Shown here piece after piece: positions 4,394 to 44,120 of a DNA stretch of 64,000 nt (position 1 is its first letter; every line of letters begins with the position of its first letter). The notes beneath the pieces were generated by a model. It was not told the origin of the DNA. It did no database searches and worked only from the letters and a program-made list of their open reading frames with translations. The position numbers were made by a program, and so were the translations under genes. The DNA is from Deltaproteobacteria bacterium. Lineage in GTDB: Bacteria > Desulfobacterota > Binatia > HRBIN30 > JACQVA1. The stretch lies in NCBI GenBank assembly GCA_016178705.1, contig JACOST010000015.1, forward strand, positions 62,001 to 126,000, read 5' to 3'.

Positions 4394-4936
4394 TCAACGG
4401 CGCAAGCTGCGCATGGCCTCGTCGATCATCGGTCGCAGGCGCTGTAGTTCTTCACTCTCGGCGCACGCGGGAATTGTGCGCAGGAACGCGACGTAGTCAT
4501 CGGGGAGGCCATGCTCGATGGCGCCTTCGATCAACATACTCATGTAGCGCGTCGACGGTTGCAGCGTCGGATCCCGGCGCTCCGAACTCAGCGTGAACGC
4601 GGCCAGCGCATTCGTCGGAGCGCTCCGGGGCGCACGCAAGGGGAACACCGTCGTCGCGACGCGCTCGTAGTTGCCGATCAGCACGCCTTCCGTCAGATCG
4701 ATATGAGGGAGGTCGTCCTCGGCGACTTCGAACGCGACGCCGAGGGTTTCCGCCGCGGGATCCGGAACGATATTGGCGAACGAGTTGCCGCTGGAGAACA
4801 GCGGTGGCTTGTCCAACACCAGCCGCCAGCCCGGCGCGCGCGCCGGTAGCGCGCGATGGAACTGGACACCGCGGCGCCCGCGCAGCGTGGCGCTCTGCAT
4901 GTTCGAGCCGTAGGCGAAGTACCAAGCCGTGGTCAC
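4394..4936 (-). CDS. Gamma-glutamylcyclotransferase-like (GGCT/AIG2 fold) protein
   Basis: A 180-residue protein opening with the family signature WYFAYGSNMQSATL, where the YGSN loop binds the gamma-glutamyl group. A conserved acidic residue in GVAFEVAEDDLPHID is in the right region to be the general acid/base. Enzymes of this fold release 5-oxoproline from gamma-glutamyl amino acids, but many bacterial members are uncharacterised. The start is GTG and overlaps the stop of the small upstream gene (4933-5166) by four bases (GTGA), indicating translational coupling. Confidence 0.85.
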   Translation of the reverse strand: MTTAWYFAYGSNMQSATLRGRRGVQFHRALPARAPGWRLVLDKPPLFSSGNSFANIVPDPAAETLGVAFEVAEDDLPHIDLTEGVLIGNYERVATTVFPLRAPRSAPTNALAAFTLSSERRDPTLQPSTRYMSMLIEGAIEHGLPDDYVAFLRTIPACAESEELQRLRPMIDEAMRSLRR

Positions 4937-5166
4937 GACTGGCTGCTCAGAAACTCGCGGCCTTTGTCGGTGAGGACAAACGCGTCGCCGGCGAATACGA
5001 CCAGTTCGTCAGCGACGAGCCCTTCCATGAGTTGCGAGAACGCCTGGTGCCCCGCTTGGTAGAAGACCAGGCTATGCGTGTGCAACTCGCGCATCGGAAT
5101 CGAGCCGCCCTTCTTGGCGACGAACTTCATCAAGCCGACACGGGCCGCGGGTACGTCTACCGCCAT
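4933..5166 (-). CDS. Small uncharacterised protein, possible winged-helix domain
   Basis: A 77-residue protein, not recognised. The pattern SQLMEGLVADELVVF followed by AFVLTDKGREFL resembles the last helix and wing of a small winged-helix domain, where a phrase like LTDKGREFL is common. It is coupled by GTGA to the cyclotransferase-like gene downstream. The start at 5166 is chosen because AGGAG lies just upstream; that ribosome-binding site falls in the first unit of the heptamer array at 5172-5278, so expression of this pair may depend on the array. Confidence 0.65.
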   Translation of the reverse strand: MAVDVPAARVGLMKFVAKKGGSIPMRELHTHSLVFYQAGHQAFSQLMEGLVADELVVFAGDAFVLTDKGREFLSSQS

Positions 5167-5171
5167 TTCGC

Positions 5172-5278
5172 TCCTGGTTTGTGGTCGTTGGTTTGTGGTC
5201 CTTGGTTTGTGGTTTCTGGTCGCTGATACTAGCCCCACCGCGAATCAGAGACCAGGGACCACGAACCAGAAACTAGGG
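5172..5278. repeat. Inverted pair of degenerate heptamer arrays
   Basis: From 5172 to 5220 seven consecutive 7-base units fit NNNTGGT with no slippage (TTGTGGT three times, also CCTTGGT and CGTTGGT). From 5244 to 5278 about five units fit the reverse complement ACCANNN (ACCAGGG, ACCACGA, ACCAGAA), with variants ATCAGAG and ACTAGGG. The two arrays face each other across a spacer of about 23 bases and could pair as a long imperfect hairpin. They fill the gap between the small gene starting at 5166 and the SDR ending at 5286. Confidence 0.85.
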
Positions 5279-5285
5279 ACCGTTT

Positions 5286-6188
5286 CTACATATATTCCGG
5301 CTGCCGCGAGAGCTTGCCGAACAGTTCGTCCTTGCGCGCGATCAGATCGCGCGCGCTGAGGGCGTCGCCGGGTTTGCTGATTTGCGCGACCTGATGCCAG
5401 CCCTTCACCAGCGCGACCTCACCGCCCCACACGATAAAGCCTTGGCCGTTGATGTCGCCGGCTTGCTCGCTGGCGAGGAAGGTGACGAGTTGCGCCGGCC
5501 ACGCTGGATGGAACACGTCGAAGCCGCTCTCGGGCTTGGCGAACATATCGTGATTCGGCATCGTGTCGGTCATGCGGGTGCGGGCGCGCGGCGCGATGTA
5601 GTTGCACGTCACGCCGTACTTGCCCATCTCGCGCGCGATGCTGATCGTCAACGCCGCAATCGCCGCCTTCGCCATCGCATAGTTGCTGTTGCCGGCCGAG
5701 CCCATCAGACCTGCTTCCGACGACGTATTGATCACCCGGCCGTACACGCTGCTGCCCTTCTTCGCCTGCTCGCGCCAGCGCACGCAGGCGTGACGCGTCA
5801 TCGCGAAGTGGCCTTTGCAATGGACGCGCAGCACCAGATCGAACTCGTCTTCGGCCATGTTGAAGTTCATGCGGTCGCGCAGCACGCCGGCGTTGTTGAC
5901 GACGATGTCGAGCCGTCCGAACGTGTCGTACGCCTGGTCGATGGTGCGGCGCGCGCCGTCCCAGGTGGCGATGTCTTCATAGTTCGCGGCCGCATTGCCG
6001 CCAGCGGCTTTGATCTCGTCGACGACCTTCTGCGCCGGCGTCTGATCCTTCCCTTCGCCGGCCACCGAGGTGCCAATGTCGTTGACAACAACCTTCGCCC
6101 CCTCTTTGGCGAGCGCCAATGAATGTTCGCGGCCAAGCCCTTGGCCGGCGCCAGTGACGACCGCAACTTTCCCGTCGAGTAGACCCAT
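5286..6188 (-). CDS. Short-chain dehydrogenase/reductase (MFE-2 type)
   Basis: A 300-residue SDR expected to oxidise or reduce a hydroxyl/keto group with NAD(P). It has the cofactor loop TGAGQGLGRE near the N-terminus, NNAG, the catalytic Ser in INTSSEAGLMG and the YxxxK in NYAMAK. The insert and length resemble the 3-hydroxyacyl-CoA dehydrogenase part of multifunctional enzyme type 2, so a 3-hydroxyacyl-CoA substrate is plausible but unproven. GGAGG precedes the ATG by 9 bases. It is transcribed toward the heptamer arrays at 5172-5278. Confidence 0.9.
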   Translation of the reverse strand: MGLLDGKVAVVTGAGQGLGREHSLALAKEGAKVVVNDIGTSVAGEGKDQTPAQKVVDEIKAAGGNAAANYEDIATWDGARRTIDQAYDTFGRLDIVVNNAGVLRDRMNFNMAEDEFDLVLRVHCKGHFAMTRHACVRWREQAKKGSSVYGRVINTSSEAGLMGSAGNSNYAMAKAAIAALTISIAREMGKYGVTCNYIAPRARTRMTDTMPNHDMFAKPESGFDVFHPAWPAQLVTFLASEQAGDINGQGFIVWGGEVALVKGWHQVAQISKPGDALSARDLIARKDELFGKLSRQPEYM

Positions 6189-9415: not shown

Positions 9416-9838
9416 ATGCTGCGTCAAGAGCGAATGCAGGCGATGCGATCGGAACGTGGGTTCACGTTACTCGAACTGCTGGTGACTGTCGCCCTCATCG
9501 GAATTTTGAGCGCGATGGCCATCTCGGCCTTCGGGTCGTACCGCCGCCGGGCATACGAAGCGGTGTCCATGGGCTACATTCGGAGCTGGGTGGCTGGCCA
9601 GGAATTGTACATTGATACCAACAACCACTATGCCGACGCCGACACGCAGCTACAGGGCTTGATCCGAATCCGTCCTCCCACAAACGTACCCTACTTGTTC
9701 ACGATTGAGTCTGGGGCTACGGCGACCGATCACTGGTGGGGTCGCGCCACGCCGACCGAGTCGGGGCTCCACCATCTGTACATCGACGAGACTGGCATCA
9801 TGCTGACGTCGCTCAGCGGGCCACCCGCAGGTTCGTAG
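9416..9838 (+). CDS. Type IV pilin-like protein (prepilin)
   Basis: A 140-residue protein with a class III signal: the leader MLRQERMQAMRSERG is followed by FTLLELLVTVALIGILS, the prepilin peptidase site being G-F and the conserved Glu at +5. The hydrophobic helix continues into a soluble globular part containing two Trp and little Cys. Major pilins and pseudopilins cannot be separated here. No other pilus assembly genes (pilB, pilC, pilD, pilQ) are in the window, so it is an orphan. Upstream is a sigma-54-type promoter at 9373-9388. Confidence 0.88.
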   Translation: MLRQERMQAMRSERGFTLLELLVTVALIGILSAMAISAFGSYRRRAYEAVSMGYIRSWVAGQELYIDTNNHYADADTQLQGLIRIRPPTNVPYLFTIESGATATDHWWGRATPTESGLHHLYIDETGIMLTSLSGPPAGS

Positions 9839-20399: not shown

Positions 20400-20522
20400 G
20401 GTCTCGCTCCTTCAAACATCGCTCGAAGTCTACCACTGATGATTCGACGCGCGCAAAGCAAAGCGTTGCCAACCGCGCGCACGAGTTCGTCGACCGAGAT
20501 CATAAGGTACTCCGTGCCTCCG

Positions 20523-20557
20523 ACTGCCTACTGCCCTCTGTCTACTGCCTACTGTCT
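20523..20557. repeat. Degenerate heptamer array overlapping the 3' end of the giant secreted-protein gene
   Basis: Five uninterrupted 7-base units of pattern CTGYCYN (CTGCCTA, CTGCCCT, CTGTCTA, CTGCCTA, CTGTCTC). The stop codon of the minus-strand gene at 20549-25258 and its last codons are read from these units, so the array seems to have landed at, or created, the gene's end. Confidence 0.8.
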
Positions 20558-23500
20558 CTCCGCGCATCTACTCAGCGCGATGTTCACCCCTTGGATCAAC
20601 TCGTCGACCGTCACGTCCGTGCTGTGATCGGCATCGAACTGCGGACAATCGCTGAGCGGTGACACTCCGAGCGCGATGTTCACGCCTTTGACGAGCTCTT
20701 CGACGGTGACGGTGTCGCTGCTGTCGCAGTCGCCGGCGCAGGGGATTGCTGTTGCGGTCGGCGGTAGCGGCGTTGCGGTTGGAGTCGCTGTGACGGTAGG
20801 CGCAGTCGTCGGACACGGAGTCGGAGAGGCGTGCGGCGTTGTAGTCTGACTCGCAGTCGGGGGCGGGCTGATGACAGCCGTGTTGTTTGGCGTCACAGCG
20901 ATCGATGGGGTGCCGGCGGTAGAGAGCGTCGGCGTCGCGGTGTTGATTGGCGTTTCTGTGGGCGAATTGGTCGCCGTCGGCAGTAGCGGAGAAGTGGTTG
21001 GACTACTTATCGCTGTTGGCGTGAGCGTCGGAACTGGCGTCGCGGTCGGAGTGTCCGCTTCAGTGCTACTCGGCGCGAGTGTGGGAGTTACGCTGAACGA
21101 CTCCGTGGCGGTGGGGGCTACCGTGTCTGTTCGCGTTTGAGTGGCGGTCAGCGTCGCCGTTTCTATTGGCGCGCTGGTCGCGGTGTTTGTCGGTATCGAG
21201 GTAGCAGTCGTCGTGGGCAAATCTGTCATCGTCTCTGGCGGCGTCGCGGTGGGCGTTGCTGACGGGCTGGTGCTCGACGTGAAGGTTACTGGGGCCGAGT
21301 TGGTCGGCACGGGCGTCGTGCTCGCCGTACTCGTTGGAGTAACGGTGGGAGTACCGGACGGCGTGTCGGTAGGCGTCTCTGTAAGCGTTCTCGTTGCGCT
21401 GTGGGTTGGTGACGACGTTGACGACGCTGTCGCTGTGCCCGTACTAGTCGCGGTGAGCGTATGCGTCGGGATTGCTGTCAGTGTTGACGTGCGGCTCATC
21501 GTCCAGGTCGCGGTGGGCGTCAACGTTCCAGTCGGCGTAACGGTTGCCGTTTGGGACGGTGTGAAACTTGGGCTTGCCGTGGCGCTGGTAGTCGGCGTGA
21601 ACGACGGCGTGCCGGTGAACGAAGCGGTAGGAGTCGGTGTTGGTGCTTGCGATGGCGAGCTGGATGGCGTCGGGCTCGCCGTTGAGGTCGCGGTGCTCGT
21701 CGCTGTGGCGATAGATGTGCTCGTCGCCATCGAAGTGATCGTGGCCATCGAGATCGCTGTCGCAGTGAACGTGCTCGTGGGGGTGGACGTTGGCGTCCGG
21801 GTGGGTGTCTGAGTTGCTGTGCTCGTACTCGTCCGGGTCGGTGTGGGTGAGTTGGTCGGTGTGCGAGTGGGCGTATCGCTCGGTGTTGAGGACGGCGTTC
21901 TCGTTGCTGTAGCGGTAAGGGTGTTCGTTGGGGTCGAAGTGCCCGTGTGGGTTGCAGTGGATGTCGCAGTGAATGTGCTCGTGGGGGTCGCCGTTGGCGT
22001 CCGGGTGGCTGTCTGAGTTGGTGTGTTCGTACTCGTCCGGGTCGGTGTGGGTGAGTTGGTCGGCGTGCGGGTCGGTGTATCGGTCGGTGTGGAGGTCGGC
22101 GTTCTCGTTGCTGTAGCGGTGGGGGTATTCGTTGGGGTCGAAGTGCCCGTGTGGGTTGCAGTGGATGTCGCAGTGAATGTGCTCGTGGGGGTCGCCGTTG
22201 GCGTGCGAGTGGCGGTCTGAGTTGGTGTGCTCGTACTCGTCCGAGTCGGTGTCGAAGTGGCGGTGTTGCTTGGTGTCGCAGTCGCGGTTCGCGTTGGCGT
22301 GTTGGTAGCGGTCTGGGTCGGCGTATTCGTGGGCGTTGCCGTCGCGGTGCCCGTACTCGTTGCTGTCCGCGTCGGAGTGTTCGTGGGCGTACGAGTCGCA
22401 GTTGCTGTTGCCGTTCGAGTCGGCGTGCGCGTGGGCGTCGTGGTCGGTGTGGGCGTTGGCGTGTTGGTCGGCGTTGGCGACGACGTGGACGTGGCGGTGA
22501 TAGTTGCGCTTGGCGAAGCTGTTGGAGTTGGACTCGCGCAAGCGCACTCCGGTCTGCTGAGCGCGTCGGCGGCGCACGCCTCATCCCATTGAACCTCGCA
22601 GCACCAGATGTTGGCGGTGCAGACCACGCTTCGACAGCTTGGATTCACACATCCAGGGCCTACTTCGGCTATACAGCAGTCGCCACTCGGGGTCGGCGTC
22701 GGCGTCGCGGTTGCCGTAGGCATCGGACTCGGGGTTGCTGTCGGCGGCGGTGCAGCGGCGTCAAGGTTAATCTGGTCAATAGCCATGCTGTTGTATGGGC
22801 TATCGCACTCGTACCCCTCCAGCCTCAGGTGGAGATTCTGTCCGCTGCTTTGGATCGCATATGGCTCGAAGCTGAAGTTGCCCGTCCTGTTTGCAGCAGT
22901 CGCTGTGCCTGCGATGCTACCATCAACGTTGATCGTAAAATCCAGACTCACAGGGCTAGCCATCGGTTGGGAGCCGGACGATGAGATGCCAACCCTCCCA
23001 AGCTGTACTCCGTTATCGTAGAGGGCGACGCTGGTCGAACCTCCCGCTCCGGGATTCTGGAACAACTCGACGCCGTAACCGCCATAGAAGCTGCTACCAG
23101 TGCTCCGTATCGTTACGAAGTGGGCAAAGCCGTCCTGATTCGGGCCGCAGCCAATCAACTGGGCGCGCAGGTGAGCTGGGAAAGAGAAGGCCAGCGACCG
23201 GTACACACCGGCACCGCTCACCCCAAGAAGTCTGTTTCCTGCGATCGAGATGTTGCCGAACTGCTCGGTCCATCCGTTCCCGGCATCGGCCGAATCCGGC
23301 CGATTGAAATCGTCTTGGAAAGACACAGCACCCGGGGTCGGCGTCGGGCCGCTTGGTGTAGCCGTAGGCGGCAGCACGCCTGTGCCGTTTACGGCGATAT
23401 CAATCTCGTACGTTGTCGGGTCGCACACTGGCGGGCTGAATTGTGAACATCGCAGGTACGTGATGCCAACGGTGGCAATCGCTGATCCGGCTGCGGATGG

Positions 23501-25258
23501 AGCGAACGCCACCTGGAATGCACTTGAGGAATTGCCTGCGAACATCGTATTCGACGCGGGTCCACCGGACACAACGAATGCCCCTCCCATGCCTCCCTTG
23601 CTGGCAATGTTTTGCAGACGCATAGGATTGGTGGACACCACACGGAACGCCACGCCTGTGGCGGCGCCAGTTTGGCCGACAAGTGTGTCTGGAAAATTGA
23701 TGCCTCCAGGCCAGACTTGGACGTACCCGTCAGATATCTGCCCCGGAGGAGTCGGAACCTGTGTGGCGGTCGGCAGATTCGTCCATGTGCGCGTTGGTGT
23801 CGCGGTGGGAGTCGCGCTGGGCTGCTGGGTGCCTGTCGATGTTCGGGTTGGAGTTAGCGTCGGCGTACGAGTGGGGATTGCTGACGGCGAGCTTTGACAA
23901 TCGGGAACGGCGAGGTACTCGCACTGACCGGTGATGCACCTTCCTGTTGTGCACTCTGGGCCACTCACGCATTCCGTATCCTGACAACAGCTAGTCCCCG
24001 TGGCGCTCCCTCCAGACGAGCTCGGCGCGATGCATGCTGAAAGTGCCGTCACCGCAACTACCTCCGTGTAGTAGTGCCGACCACCGATTACCGCGTGTGA
24101 GGCCACGAAATAGGTTTTCGGTTCCGGGAAGGAAACGACATCATTGAAGATACCCTGTCCGGTCTTCGCTGAAGTGCGATTGCACGACGGGCGACCATCG
24201 CAGGTGGCGGCTGATACGTCCTGAATCGTGTCGACGTGGATGTTTGTGTGGGTCGTTGGCGTGTTAACGAGCCAGTAGAGGCGAAGGGAGCTTCCCGCAG
24301 ACACCAACGATGGAGGCAGCGCCGCCCATTGGAAAGGACGGCGCTCCCACAACCGGACGTTCAGTCCGGGCAGGTCTGGTCGGTAAGGATCTGGCCCTTT
24401 GCCCGCCAGGTCGCCTTCCCAACCGTAGGGATCAACGGGAATATCGTCTTTTCTCACCTCGAAATGGAGATGAACAGGGAATGCGTTAGCTTTACCGCTG
24501 CAGCCACGGCCACCCGCGGTCCCGATCTGGGTCCCGCGACCAACGAACTTAGAAGGTTCGTACGCGCCTGACGCATTTGTCACGCTCGAATCCAGCGTGT
24601 CCAAATGCAGATAGACGGTCGAGTAGCCTCCGCCGTGGTCGAGGTAGACGGCCCCGCAGCAACCGGCCGTGCAGCCACAACTCGCGCTGCAAGTACCGCT
24701 GCTGCGCGCTATCGTTGTCCCGTCGGCGGCGGCGTACACTGGGAGGGGCTGACCGTTGGTTGAGAAGTCGTATCCGGGGTGCCCGTCGTAGTAGAGACGT
24801 GTCTTGTCGCTGTCACCACTGTAGCTTCCGTTGACCATGAAACTTGGCTGTGTGTCACTTCCGAACCCGTGAAGAAGCGAGCCGCCAAACGATACTGGAT
24901 TAGAATCGGGGTTTGTGTCGCCAACTTCACCCGTGAACGCTCGGACTCGGCTGTCCGGGACATAAGCAGCGGGCGTCTCGTGGTCCATGACGGTGACTAT
25001 GCTTGCGCTCCATGGGTCGACGGAGGGGCCGGTCTGAAGAGGGAACGAGAGCGGGAACGTCTCGGCCGAAGCATCACGTGCAGATGCCGCAACCAGGCAC
25101 CCAAGGAGCAAGACGCGCCAAGAGGGGCCAAGCTCGGTGTGGCGCGCTCGCCTTCGAGGGTGAGCGCCCTCGGTGGGGTGTCGCACCGTGAGCAGCAACG
25201 CTCTGGCGAAGATGGCGATTTTACGCGCCCCACTTCTGATTCGTACCCGGTCGCTCAT
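20549..25258 (-). CDS. Giant secreted M23 (LytM-type) peptidase with Thr-Pro repeat region and C-terminal dockerin-like pair
   Basis: A 1569-residue exported protein. Order: long basic N-region, signal helix ([19 protein letters not shown], about 48-65), M23 peptidase (about 150-300) with zinc ligands His160 and Asp164 in HPGYDF and H263/H265 in HLHFEVR, a Cys-rich segment, an ASH-like beta domain (choice-of-anchor D type), a concanavalin-like domain starting DDFNRPD, a Cys-rich [10 protein letters not shown] module, about 550 residues of Thr/Pro/Ser repeat, and a C-terminal VTVEEL/VTVDEL pair. The family cuts peptidoglycan cross-links or peptides; here it probably acts at the cell surface on a long stalk. 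GGAAGG precedes the ATG; a GTG at codon 25 is an alternative. The 3' end lies in a heptamer array. Confidence 0.88.
21770..22260. repeat. 204-bp tandem repeat in the Thr-Pro coding region
   Basis: Two nearly identical units, 21819-22022 and 22023-22226, each encode 68 residues of the Thr/Pro/Ser stalk; part of a further copy lies on each side. The period is a multiple of three, so unit gain or loss keeps the frame. Differences between copies are scattered single bases, indicating a fairly recent duplication. Confidence 0.85.
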
Positions 25259-43990: not shown

Positions 43991-44033
43991 GCGTCGCGTT
44001 TATCAGATTCAGGTGAGCGGACGCCAGACGAAA

Positions 44034-44068
44034 CGCAAAAGTCAAAAGTCAAAACGCAAAATGCAAAA
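44034..44068. repeat. Degenerate heptamer array (NNCAAAA)
   Basis: Five in-phase units CGCAAAA, GTCAAAA, GTCAAAA, CGCAAAA and TGCAAAA lie between a CoA transferase and a NIPSNAP-like gene. Constant CAAAA plus two variable bases is seen in each. Confidence 0.85.
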
Positions 44069-44080
44069 CTCGGATGGGTC

Positions 44081-44115
44081 CTTGACTTTAGACCATGGAC
44101 TTTGGACTCTGGACC
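44081..44115. repeat. Degenerate heptamer array (NNNGACY)
   Basis: Five in-phase units CTTGACT, TTAGACC, ATGGACT, TTGGACT and CTGGACC end 5 bases before the ATG at 44121. This second array is 12 bases from the first and differs from it in sequence but not in period. Confidence 0.85.
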
Positions 44116-44120
44116 CTGTG

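Follow-up and report, generated by a model that had tools for sequence, protein, structure and literature searches.

What holds an array of degenerate heptamers in strict phase across an intergenic gap while the other letters of its units vary, and does such an array act upon the genes beside it? The question is raised by a locus in the window (i.e. the whole stretch of 64,000 nucleotides that was analysed), where two facing arms built on the unit TGGTNNN occupy the gap between a short-chain dehydrogenase (SDR) gene and a gene encoding a 77-aa protein (Table 1). An earlier note on this DNA had counted seven NNNTGGT units and about five ACCANNN units in strict 7-base phase, with the other bases varying, and had held that this is not a normal microsatellite. 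The seven units of the left arm stand as exact, with TGGT starting at 5175, 5182, 5189, 5196, 5203, 5210 and 5217 (units spanning 5175-5223), and are followed by a decayed eighth unit, TGATACT, at 5224-5230. The count for the right arm has to be revised to three exact and four near units, since on the plus strand ACCA is exact at 5251, 5258 and 5265 and carries one mismatch at 5237 (ACCG), 5244 (ATCA), 5272 (ACTA) and 5279 (ACCG). The loop is uncertain, as decayed units flank the spacer, and the arm-chaining run gave a gap of 3 nt. The strict phase is absent from dinucleotide-preserving shuffles of the window, 100 of which gave an expectation of 0.00 for the four-unit patterns of either arm. 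The units vary between neighbours and the array is not homogeneous, as the distinction from a microsatellite implied; a phase-variable microsatellite has identical units prone to slippage, but here adjacent units differ.

Table 1. Features of the window that bear on the heptamer arrays (positions within the window).
Feature	Position	Strand	Remark
Left heptamer arm	5175-5230	+	seven exact TGGTNNN units and one decayed unit
Spacer between the arms	5231-5236	none	read from sequence
Right heptamer arm	5237-5282	-	TGGTNNN on minus strand
AGGAG, putative ribosome-binding site of gene 4933-5166	5171-5175	-	edge of left arm; read from sequence
77-aa gene downstream of the array	4933-5166	-	without Pfam match
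AIG2-like/gamma-glutamylcyclotransferase-like gene	4394-4936	-	overlaps 77-aa gene
Short-chain dehydrogenase (SDR) gene, upstream	5286-6188	-	stop codon 3 nt from right arm
Second heptamer array, ACTGCCT-like units	20520-20557	none	overlaps 3' end of ORF 20549-25258 (-)
Another facing array pair	44020-44118	none	AAAGTCA-like, then TGACTTT/GGACTTT

Two other features of the window may be recorded in passing. The ORF at whose 3' end the second array lies encodes a protein of 1569 aa, in which a Peptidase_M23 domain is accompanied by a long tract rich in Thr and Pro that is encoded by 204-bp tandem repeats, and a pilin-like gene with an N-terminal methylation motif lies at 9416-9838 (+).

The same period runs through the genome to which the window belongs. 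Self-match was scored in 592 kb (C14:1-400000, contig C6 and the window), comprising 302 intergenic regions delimited by gene and start calls from a home-made caller; C6, which had earlier pattern matches, and the window are non-neutral choices, and C14 was not picked for arrays. At lags 7, 14 and 21 the threshold was passed by 26, 24 and 13 of the 302 regions, compared with 0.2, 0 and 0 in shuffles, and the other lags between 4 and 29 gave 0-4. C14 alone yielded 14, 11 and 6 of 200 intergenic regions at the same three lags and at most 3 at any other. When coding sequence was included, C14:1-400000 contained 16 lag-7 tracts, whereas three fifth-order Markov simulations yielded 0-1; 0-3 tracts were counted at lags divisible by neither 3 nor 7, and multiples of 3 reached 12, as coding sequence predicts. 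Shuffling had been proposed in the earlier note as the check on the phasing, and at lag 7 the shuffles fail to reproduce it; the search that it proposed for further arrays in the genome found them, with 53 overlapping matches to the pattern TGGTNNNTGGTNNNTGGT and other heptamers besides. At a slightly lower threshold 30 of the 302 regions pass, of which at least four (C14 498, 163153 and 165356, and C6 112753) are by eye not heptamer arrays and pass only at lag 14 or 21. By gene orientation, the 30 regions are 22 of the 182 co-directional gaps, 4 of the 46 convergent ones and 4 of the 74 divergent ones, and the difference between co-directional and divergent gaps is not significant (p 0.17). 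The gaps with arrays often lie within one operon (e.g. nuoK/nuoL, gltB/gltD) and the flanking genes are unrelated, including those for complex I, glutamate synthase, iron uptake, nucleoside hydrolase, sugar kinase and CoA-transferase, among others. Intergenic regions of this genome also contain dispersed REP-like repeats of the form GAGTAG...GTATCGAGGG (C14 163153-163302 and 165356-165689; C6 112753-113072), the copies being 81-95% identical among the matches listed.

The units of this genome fall by eye into several groups, namely TGGTYYS, GCGGAWT, AAAGTCN/NGACTTT, TCGTGAN, GCCATCA/GCTGATG and ACTGCCT. Where both arms are clear they belong to the same group and face each other, and one array, in gltB/gltD, combines two groups. 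The polarity is strict: TGGT units followed by ACCA units gave 15 overlapping matches at 8 loci and the reverse order none, and all nine chained TGGT arm pairs are facing. The same search in 57 other genomes found facing matches only in G003 (three) and reverse-order matches in G001, G018, G033 and G047 (one each). Unit statistics for the TGGT group were taken from 28 arrays with 126 units in the fetched parts of the genome, of which 98 were counted after the last units had been dropped. Positions 1-4 are nearly invariant (93-97 of 98 at each), which is partly built in because chaining tolerated at most one TGGT mismatch. The free positions 5-7 are T55/C41, T60/C34 and C49/G41, and such near-confinement to T/C, T/C and G/C looks like the effect of a constraint and not of decay without one. 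The likeness of units is no higher within an array (0.468) than between arrays (0.466). Relative to permuted order, it is lower for adjacent TGGT units (0.395, permuted 0.461; p 0.01) and higher for alternate ones (0.571, permuted 0.481; p 0.01); no significant alternation was found in GCGGAWT arrays, and as a general property alternation was rejected, for with all families pooled neighbours are more alike than permuted. Words of two or three units are not shared in excess between TGGT arrays.

As to function, it had been suggested that the two arms of the window array could pair as a long hairpin covering the AGGAG of the 77-aa gene, said to fall in the first unit, and that this could control the gene. 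The pairing is borne out by prediction, all five bases of the motif being paired in the minimum-energy RNA fold of the leader (-53.1 kcal/mol). That fold goes only modestly beyond shuffles, however (z -2.17, or -1.99 as DNA), compared with z values of -6.86, -5.61, -6.09 and -4.39 for the leaders of four other arrays. The placing of the motif is right in that it adjoins the left arm, but it has a single base in common with the first TGGT. SD-like motifs precede 5 of the 14 starts that have an array end within 25 nt and 147 of the 304 other starts (Fisher p 0.42); they are not enriched at array-near starts, and the AGGAG beside the unit therefore looks incidental. With a weak fold and no such enrichment, control of the 77-aa gene by the array is unsupported. 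Neither does the array resemble an intrinsic terminator, as the minus-strand sequence beyond the hairpin, GGAGCGAAATG, is by eye without a T run.

A broader form of the same idea would make the arrays RNA regulators, intercistronic hairpins that hide or expose a ribosome-binding site, or protect or process operon mRNA, and whose structure is selected. The strong predicted hairpins at the four other loci, the paired AGGAG, the strictly facing order and the location of arrays inside operons all agree with it, and over the nine TGGT hairpins the summed length of the longest GU-tolerant stem exceeds that of unit-shuffled arms (p 0.007). Three stem statistics were tried, and that value is therefore only suggestive, hinting at selection or at inverted copying; the longest exact match between arms is borderline (p 0.063) and the summed minimum free energy is ordinary (p 0.29). 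The order of the units in the window array folds no better than a shuffled order (p 0.45). An earlier in-register test of the arms with a whole-unit score was likewise negative, but it was poorly designed because the score rewards overlap length. Facing arrays are also present in convergent gaps, which have no start codon beside them, and most relatives are without an array at the same junctions (see below). Together with the weak fold in the window and the lack of SD enrichment, these results make selected RNA regulation an unlikely explanation.

Comparison with relatives had to be made at conserved junctions elsewhere in the genome, because the layout beside the SDR gene differs in G001, G007 and G013, which were compared by layout. 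For nuoL 17 loci from the order were considered, of which L131 was left out, L138 had no upstream gene and L137 had an upstream gene that was not NuoK-sized. Seven (L124-L130) look orthologous to the array-bearing locus (62-100% identity), and a Pfam match confirmed the upstream gene as NuoK in the window's genome as well as in G014, G001, G009 and G003. The nuoK/nuoL gap is 105 nt with a TGGT array in the window's genome and 86 nt with a facing GTCCAAA/GGACTTT array in G014; it is 107 nt without an array in G001, the closest relative, and 69 nt, again without an array, in G012, and it is 27 nt in G005, 6 nt in G003 and 2 nt in G009. The other ten loci mostly belong to a second nuo type, whose gaps measure 2-13 nt (2 nt in the window's own second copy), and in one of them, that of G010, the gap contains GGCAGTAAGGCAG. 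At gltB/gltD (14 loci) TCGTGAN and ACTGCCT units give a lag-7 score of 35 in the window's genome and weak GGCGANN-like units give scores of 9 in G008 and 11 in G012; G011 scores 9 at lag 7 and equally at lag 9, the G005 gap is masked by N, and the remaining gaps are of 3-119 nt without period 7. Upstream of an Hsp70-like gene (DUF2760 by Pfam in the window's genome only) there is an 83-nt TGGT array in that genome, a GCTGANN run in G005 (score 17), a weak array in G014 (score 10), and a gap of -4 to +4 nt in 5 of 13 relatives; in this set L414, L416 and L418 have uncertain upstream gene calls, and no gene was obtained at L420. Nothing about turnover could be read from the rpiA junction. Arrays thus occupy conserved junctions in few relatives and, where they are present, their heptamers differ from those of the window's genome. 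In samples of 21-115 kb from nine genomes of the same order, lag-7 scores of at least 12 were found in G014 (three), G012 (two), G008, G003 and G004 (one each), and none in the samples of G001, G002, G007 and G013 (the last only 21 kb); in these samples lag 7, with 8 matches, barely stands out from lag 24 (7) and lag 12 (5).

Steps of 7 nt are seen most directly in a single element of a single genome, that of G012. Triplets of GCGGAWT occur in 7 of 148 genomes of the class (one of them, G130, also matches the backward control), and all 18 loci of this pattern in G012 are copies of an element of ~140 bp that consists of a GCGGGCTTCGCCCGC palindrome, AACCCATT, a GCGGAWT array with facing arms and a tail that is conserved. 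Used as a query, the element gave 32 matches in G012, some of them partial, and a 55-bp piece with 93% identity in the window's genome (C28:67107-67162); none was found in the other 13 genomes of the order. In an alignment of 31 G012 copies (including L345) one copy, L406, is without the left arm, and the left array of the other 30 has four units in 18, five in one (L337) and three in eleven, counts that are not a fair sample because 18 of the 31 came from a pattern requiring three GCGGAWT units. Three orders of units occur among the three-unit copies (one in L398, one in L403 and one in the other nine), as would follow if the four-unit form had lost unit 3, unit 2 and unit 1 respectively, although substitution or growth from three units is possible. 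The right arm of L402 is longer by 14. Within the arrays every length change among the 31 copies is of 7 or 14, and outside them there are changes of -4 (L352), -1 (L394), 1 nt in the loop and -14 (L404, L405).

On another view, the array pairs would be the cores of REP/MITE-like elements, each of them inserted whole, which would explain the fixed polarity and the shared families. It is in keeping with this view that the G012 array lies behind a palindrome in a dispersed element, that a piece of that element occurs in the window's genome, and that Y1-type transposase genes are present there (six PF01797 matches). Against it, although 25 of the 29 array-bearing regions of this genome match elsewhere (62 of 273 for the others), TGGT regions match, by eye and among the matches listed (at most four for each region), only other TGGT arrays, and multi-unit words are not shared in excess between them. 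Nor was a period-7 tract found in the flanks of the eight Y1 genes that were inspected (the two on C6 in the window's genome and those of L374, L375, L376, L377, L378 and L379; the window genome's genes on C28, C29 and C30 were left out); L376 has one period-14 tract towards its end, away from the Y1 gene. Whole insertion is accordingly improbable, slightly more so than RNA regulation. Mobilisation of the arrays by RAYT transposases in particular was considered and gains no support from the inspected flanks, in which heptamer arrays were not seen, unlike the same-sequence hairpins that flank a RAYT gene in the case of REPs and BIMEs. Repeats of the form CCCAGGGC..GCCCTGGG flank both Y1 genes on C6 and those of L377 and L379, and strong Y1 matches overlap just loosely with the array-bearing genomes.

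A separate observation concerns the Rfam family Acido-Lenti-1 (RF01687), typed as an sRNA, which matches repeats beside RAYT-type Y1 genes in the window's genome, G012 and G003 (L077:14597-14641, L078:248-292, L377:1352-1396, and L379:1399-1443, 1973-2017 and 2036-2080) and had no match at four other Y1 loci (L374, L375, L376 and L378). In G003 it lies on both flanks of the Y1 gene in inverted orientation, and the family, which is named in at least three papers, may represent a REP doublet and not an sRNA.

Beyond the class, the TGGTYYS pattern was found in at least 120 stretches from many phyla, which among the matches listed are by eye mostly homogeneous microsatellites, the YYS being imposed by the pattern. 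When 768 kb from 120 such loci was scanned with the matched array excluded, period 7 was the commonest in these loci, themselves selected for having a heptamer array, with 77 tracts in 36 of the 120 (shuffled control, 2 at lag 7); lags 14, 21 and 28 gave 44, 35 and 22 tracts and other lags at most 19. None of 44 consensus heptamers from these loci is identical to a family of the window's genome, and 10 lie within one mismatch of one, compared with 10.2 for letter-shuffled heptamers, which rules out a universal heptamer sequence. The step is common to loci of many phyla and the heptamer sequence is not.

This result bears on the idea that a protein with a 7-nt step could bind the arrays, as DNA or as RNA, at sites selected genome-wide. 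The restriction of positions 5-7, and the equal likeness of units within and between arrays, would be expected if all sites conformed to a single consensus. Many proteins would however be needed for the several unrelated heptamers that one genome contains and for the different ones at the same junction in relatives, the neighbouring genes are without a common function, and there is no convergence of sequence across phyla; on balance a binding array would be a very improbable explanation.

The reading that is preferred here, with a probability of roughly 0.6, is that the arrays arise as tandem units are gained and lost, 7 nt at a time, and that mobile carriers account for part of their spread. 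Such gain and loss is directly visible in one relative; with substitutions making the units diverge, the letters would drift while the phase persists. Similar heptamers would spread as families within a genome, in G012 by way of the dispersed REP-like element; no carrier was seen in the window's own genome. Arrays would build up in intergenic gaps, including those inside operons, presumably because they do little harm there and 7 is not a multiple of 3. Transcripts that cross them could form long hairpins and may mildly affect operon mRNA. The phase, the period of 7, the several families, the turnover at conserved junctions and the length changes in multiples of 7 are observed; slippage would be the molecular cause, and the arrays would be nearly neutral.

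Several observations sit awkwardly with gain and loss. Local slippage alone does not account for families shared across the genome, nor for TGGT units that are as alike between arrays as within them. The pattern of neighbouring and alternate units, the constrained positions 5-7, the strict facing order and the GU-tolerant stems also count against this reading, as does the restriction of the 7n changes to a single element that itself shows a 14-nt difference outside its arrays, and the slight prominence of lag 7 in the small samples from relatives. A bolder and more tentative proposal, held at clearly less than even odds, is that a sequence-blind process with a fixed 7-nt step, perhaps inherent in a polymerase of replication or repair, or else due to an enzyme not yet recognised, builds the degenerate and often facing arrays at junctions, some of which are captured and spread by REP-like carriers, so that junctions come to be refilled by unrelated heptamers with the same step. 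As the period recurs without the heptamer sequence, and as the G012 copies differ by multiples of 7, the length of the step is itself testable. The question why it should be 7, as opposed to 5, 8 or 10, is put in the portion of the published literature considered here without being answered. The arrays also alter the spacing within core operons (nuo, glt) whose genes nearly touch in some relatives.

Among known systems, REP and BIME elements are dispersed intergenic hairpins associated with RAYT transposases. The G012 element resembles them in that its heptamer hairpin is joined to a REP-like palindrome, whereas the TGGT arrays of the window's genome share no REP-like head among the matches listed. 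The ribbon-helix-helix omega protein binds contiguous WATCACW heptads, and the heptamers of the window differ from these in sequence. TAACTGA direct repeats of Beggiatoaceae are built on one fixed heptamer, are intergenic, lie mostly just upstream of putative starts and have been suggested to have a role in translation, with one indirect repeat among 169 direct sets (MacGregor 2015, PMC4679880). As far as they are described in the part of that paper considered here, they differ from the present arrays, which are degenerate, use several heptamers and often form facing pairs; the units of the window array are TGGTNNN and not the exact TAACTGA heptamer. A 2007 study, cited in PMC4692102, reportedly found heptameric simple repeats to be over-represented in bacteria, with the DNA segment held by the polymerase suggested as a possible reason; compared with what is reported of it there, the over-representation is extended here to intergenic arrays of degenerate units, and the copies of one element are shown to differ in length by 7n.

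The closest counterparts are the GGGNATC and GGGGA(C/T)T heptameric repeats of Xanthomonas, with similar ones in Nostoc, which have conserved and variable positions (Rehm et al. 2015, PMC4692102). A Xanthomonas genome has some 185 sites, most of them in intergenic gaps flanked by aligned ORFs and few between divergent ORFs, Xcc has 70 facing pairs, and lengths vary between species; the repeats are generally without association to mobile elements and a G-quadruplex has been proposed for them (PMC4692102). The family of the window has tracts of GG only, its unit being TGGTYYS, and not the G-tracts of at least three that a quadruplex needs; the proposed G-quadruplex is therefore inapplicable and the family is classed as a variant and not as the same G4 repeat. 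The window's genome also differs in having several heptamer families, and the relatives in having different families at the same operon junction, neither of which was found among the listed titles and abstracts on bacterial heptamer or heptanucleotide repeats; in G012, unlike the repeats of Rehm et al. as far as the text considered here describes them, the array is carried on a dispersed element. In common with the Xanthomonas and Nostoc repeats there is a tandem 7-nt unit with fixed and variable positions at many, mostly intergenic sites, often between aligned ORFs and some of them facing. The array of the window is a real, non-random feature and one instance of a widespread class.
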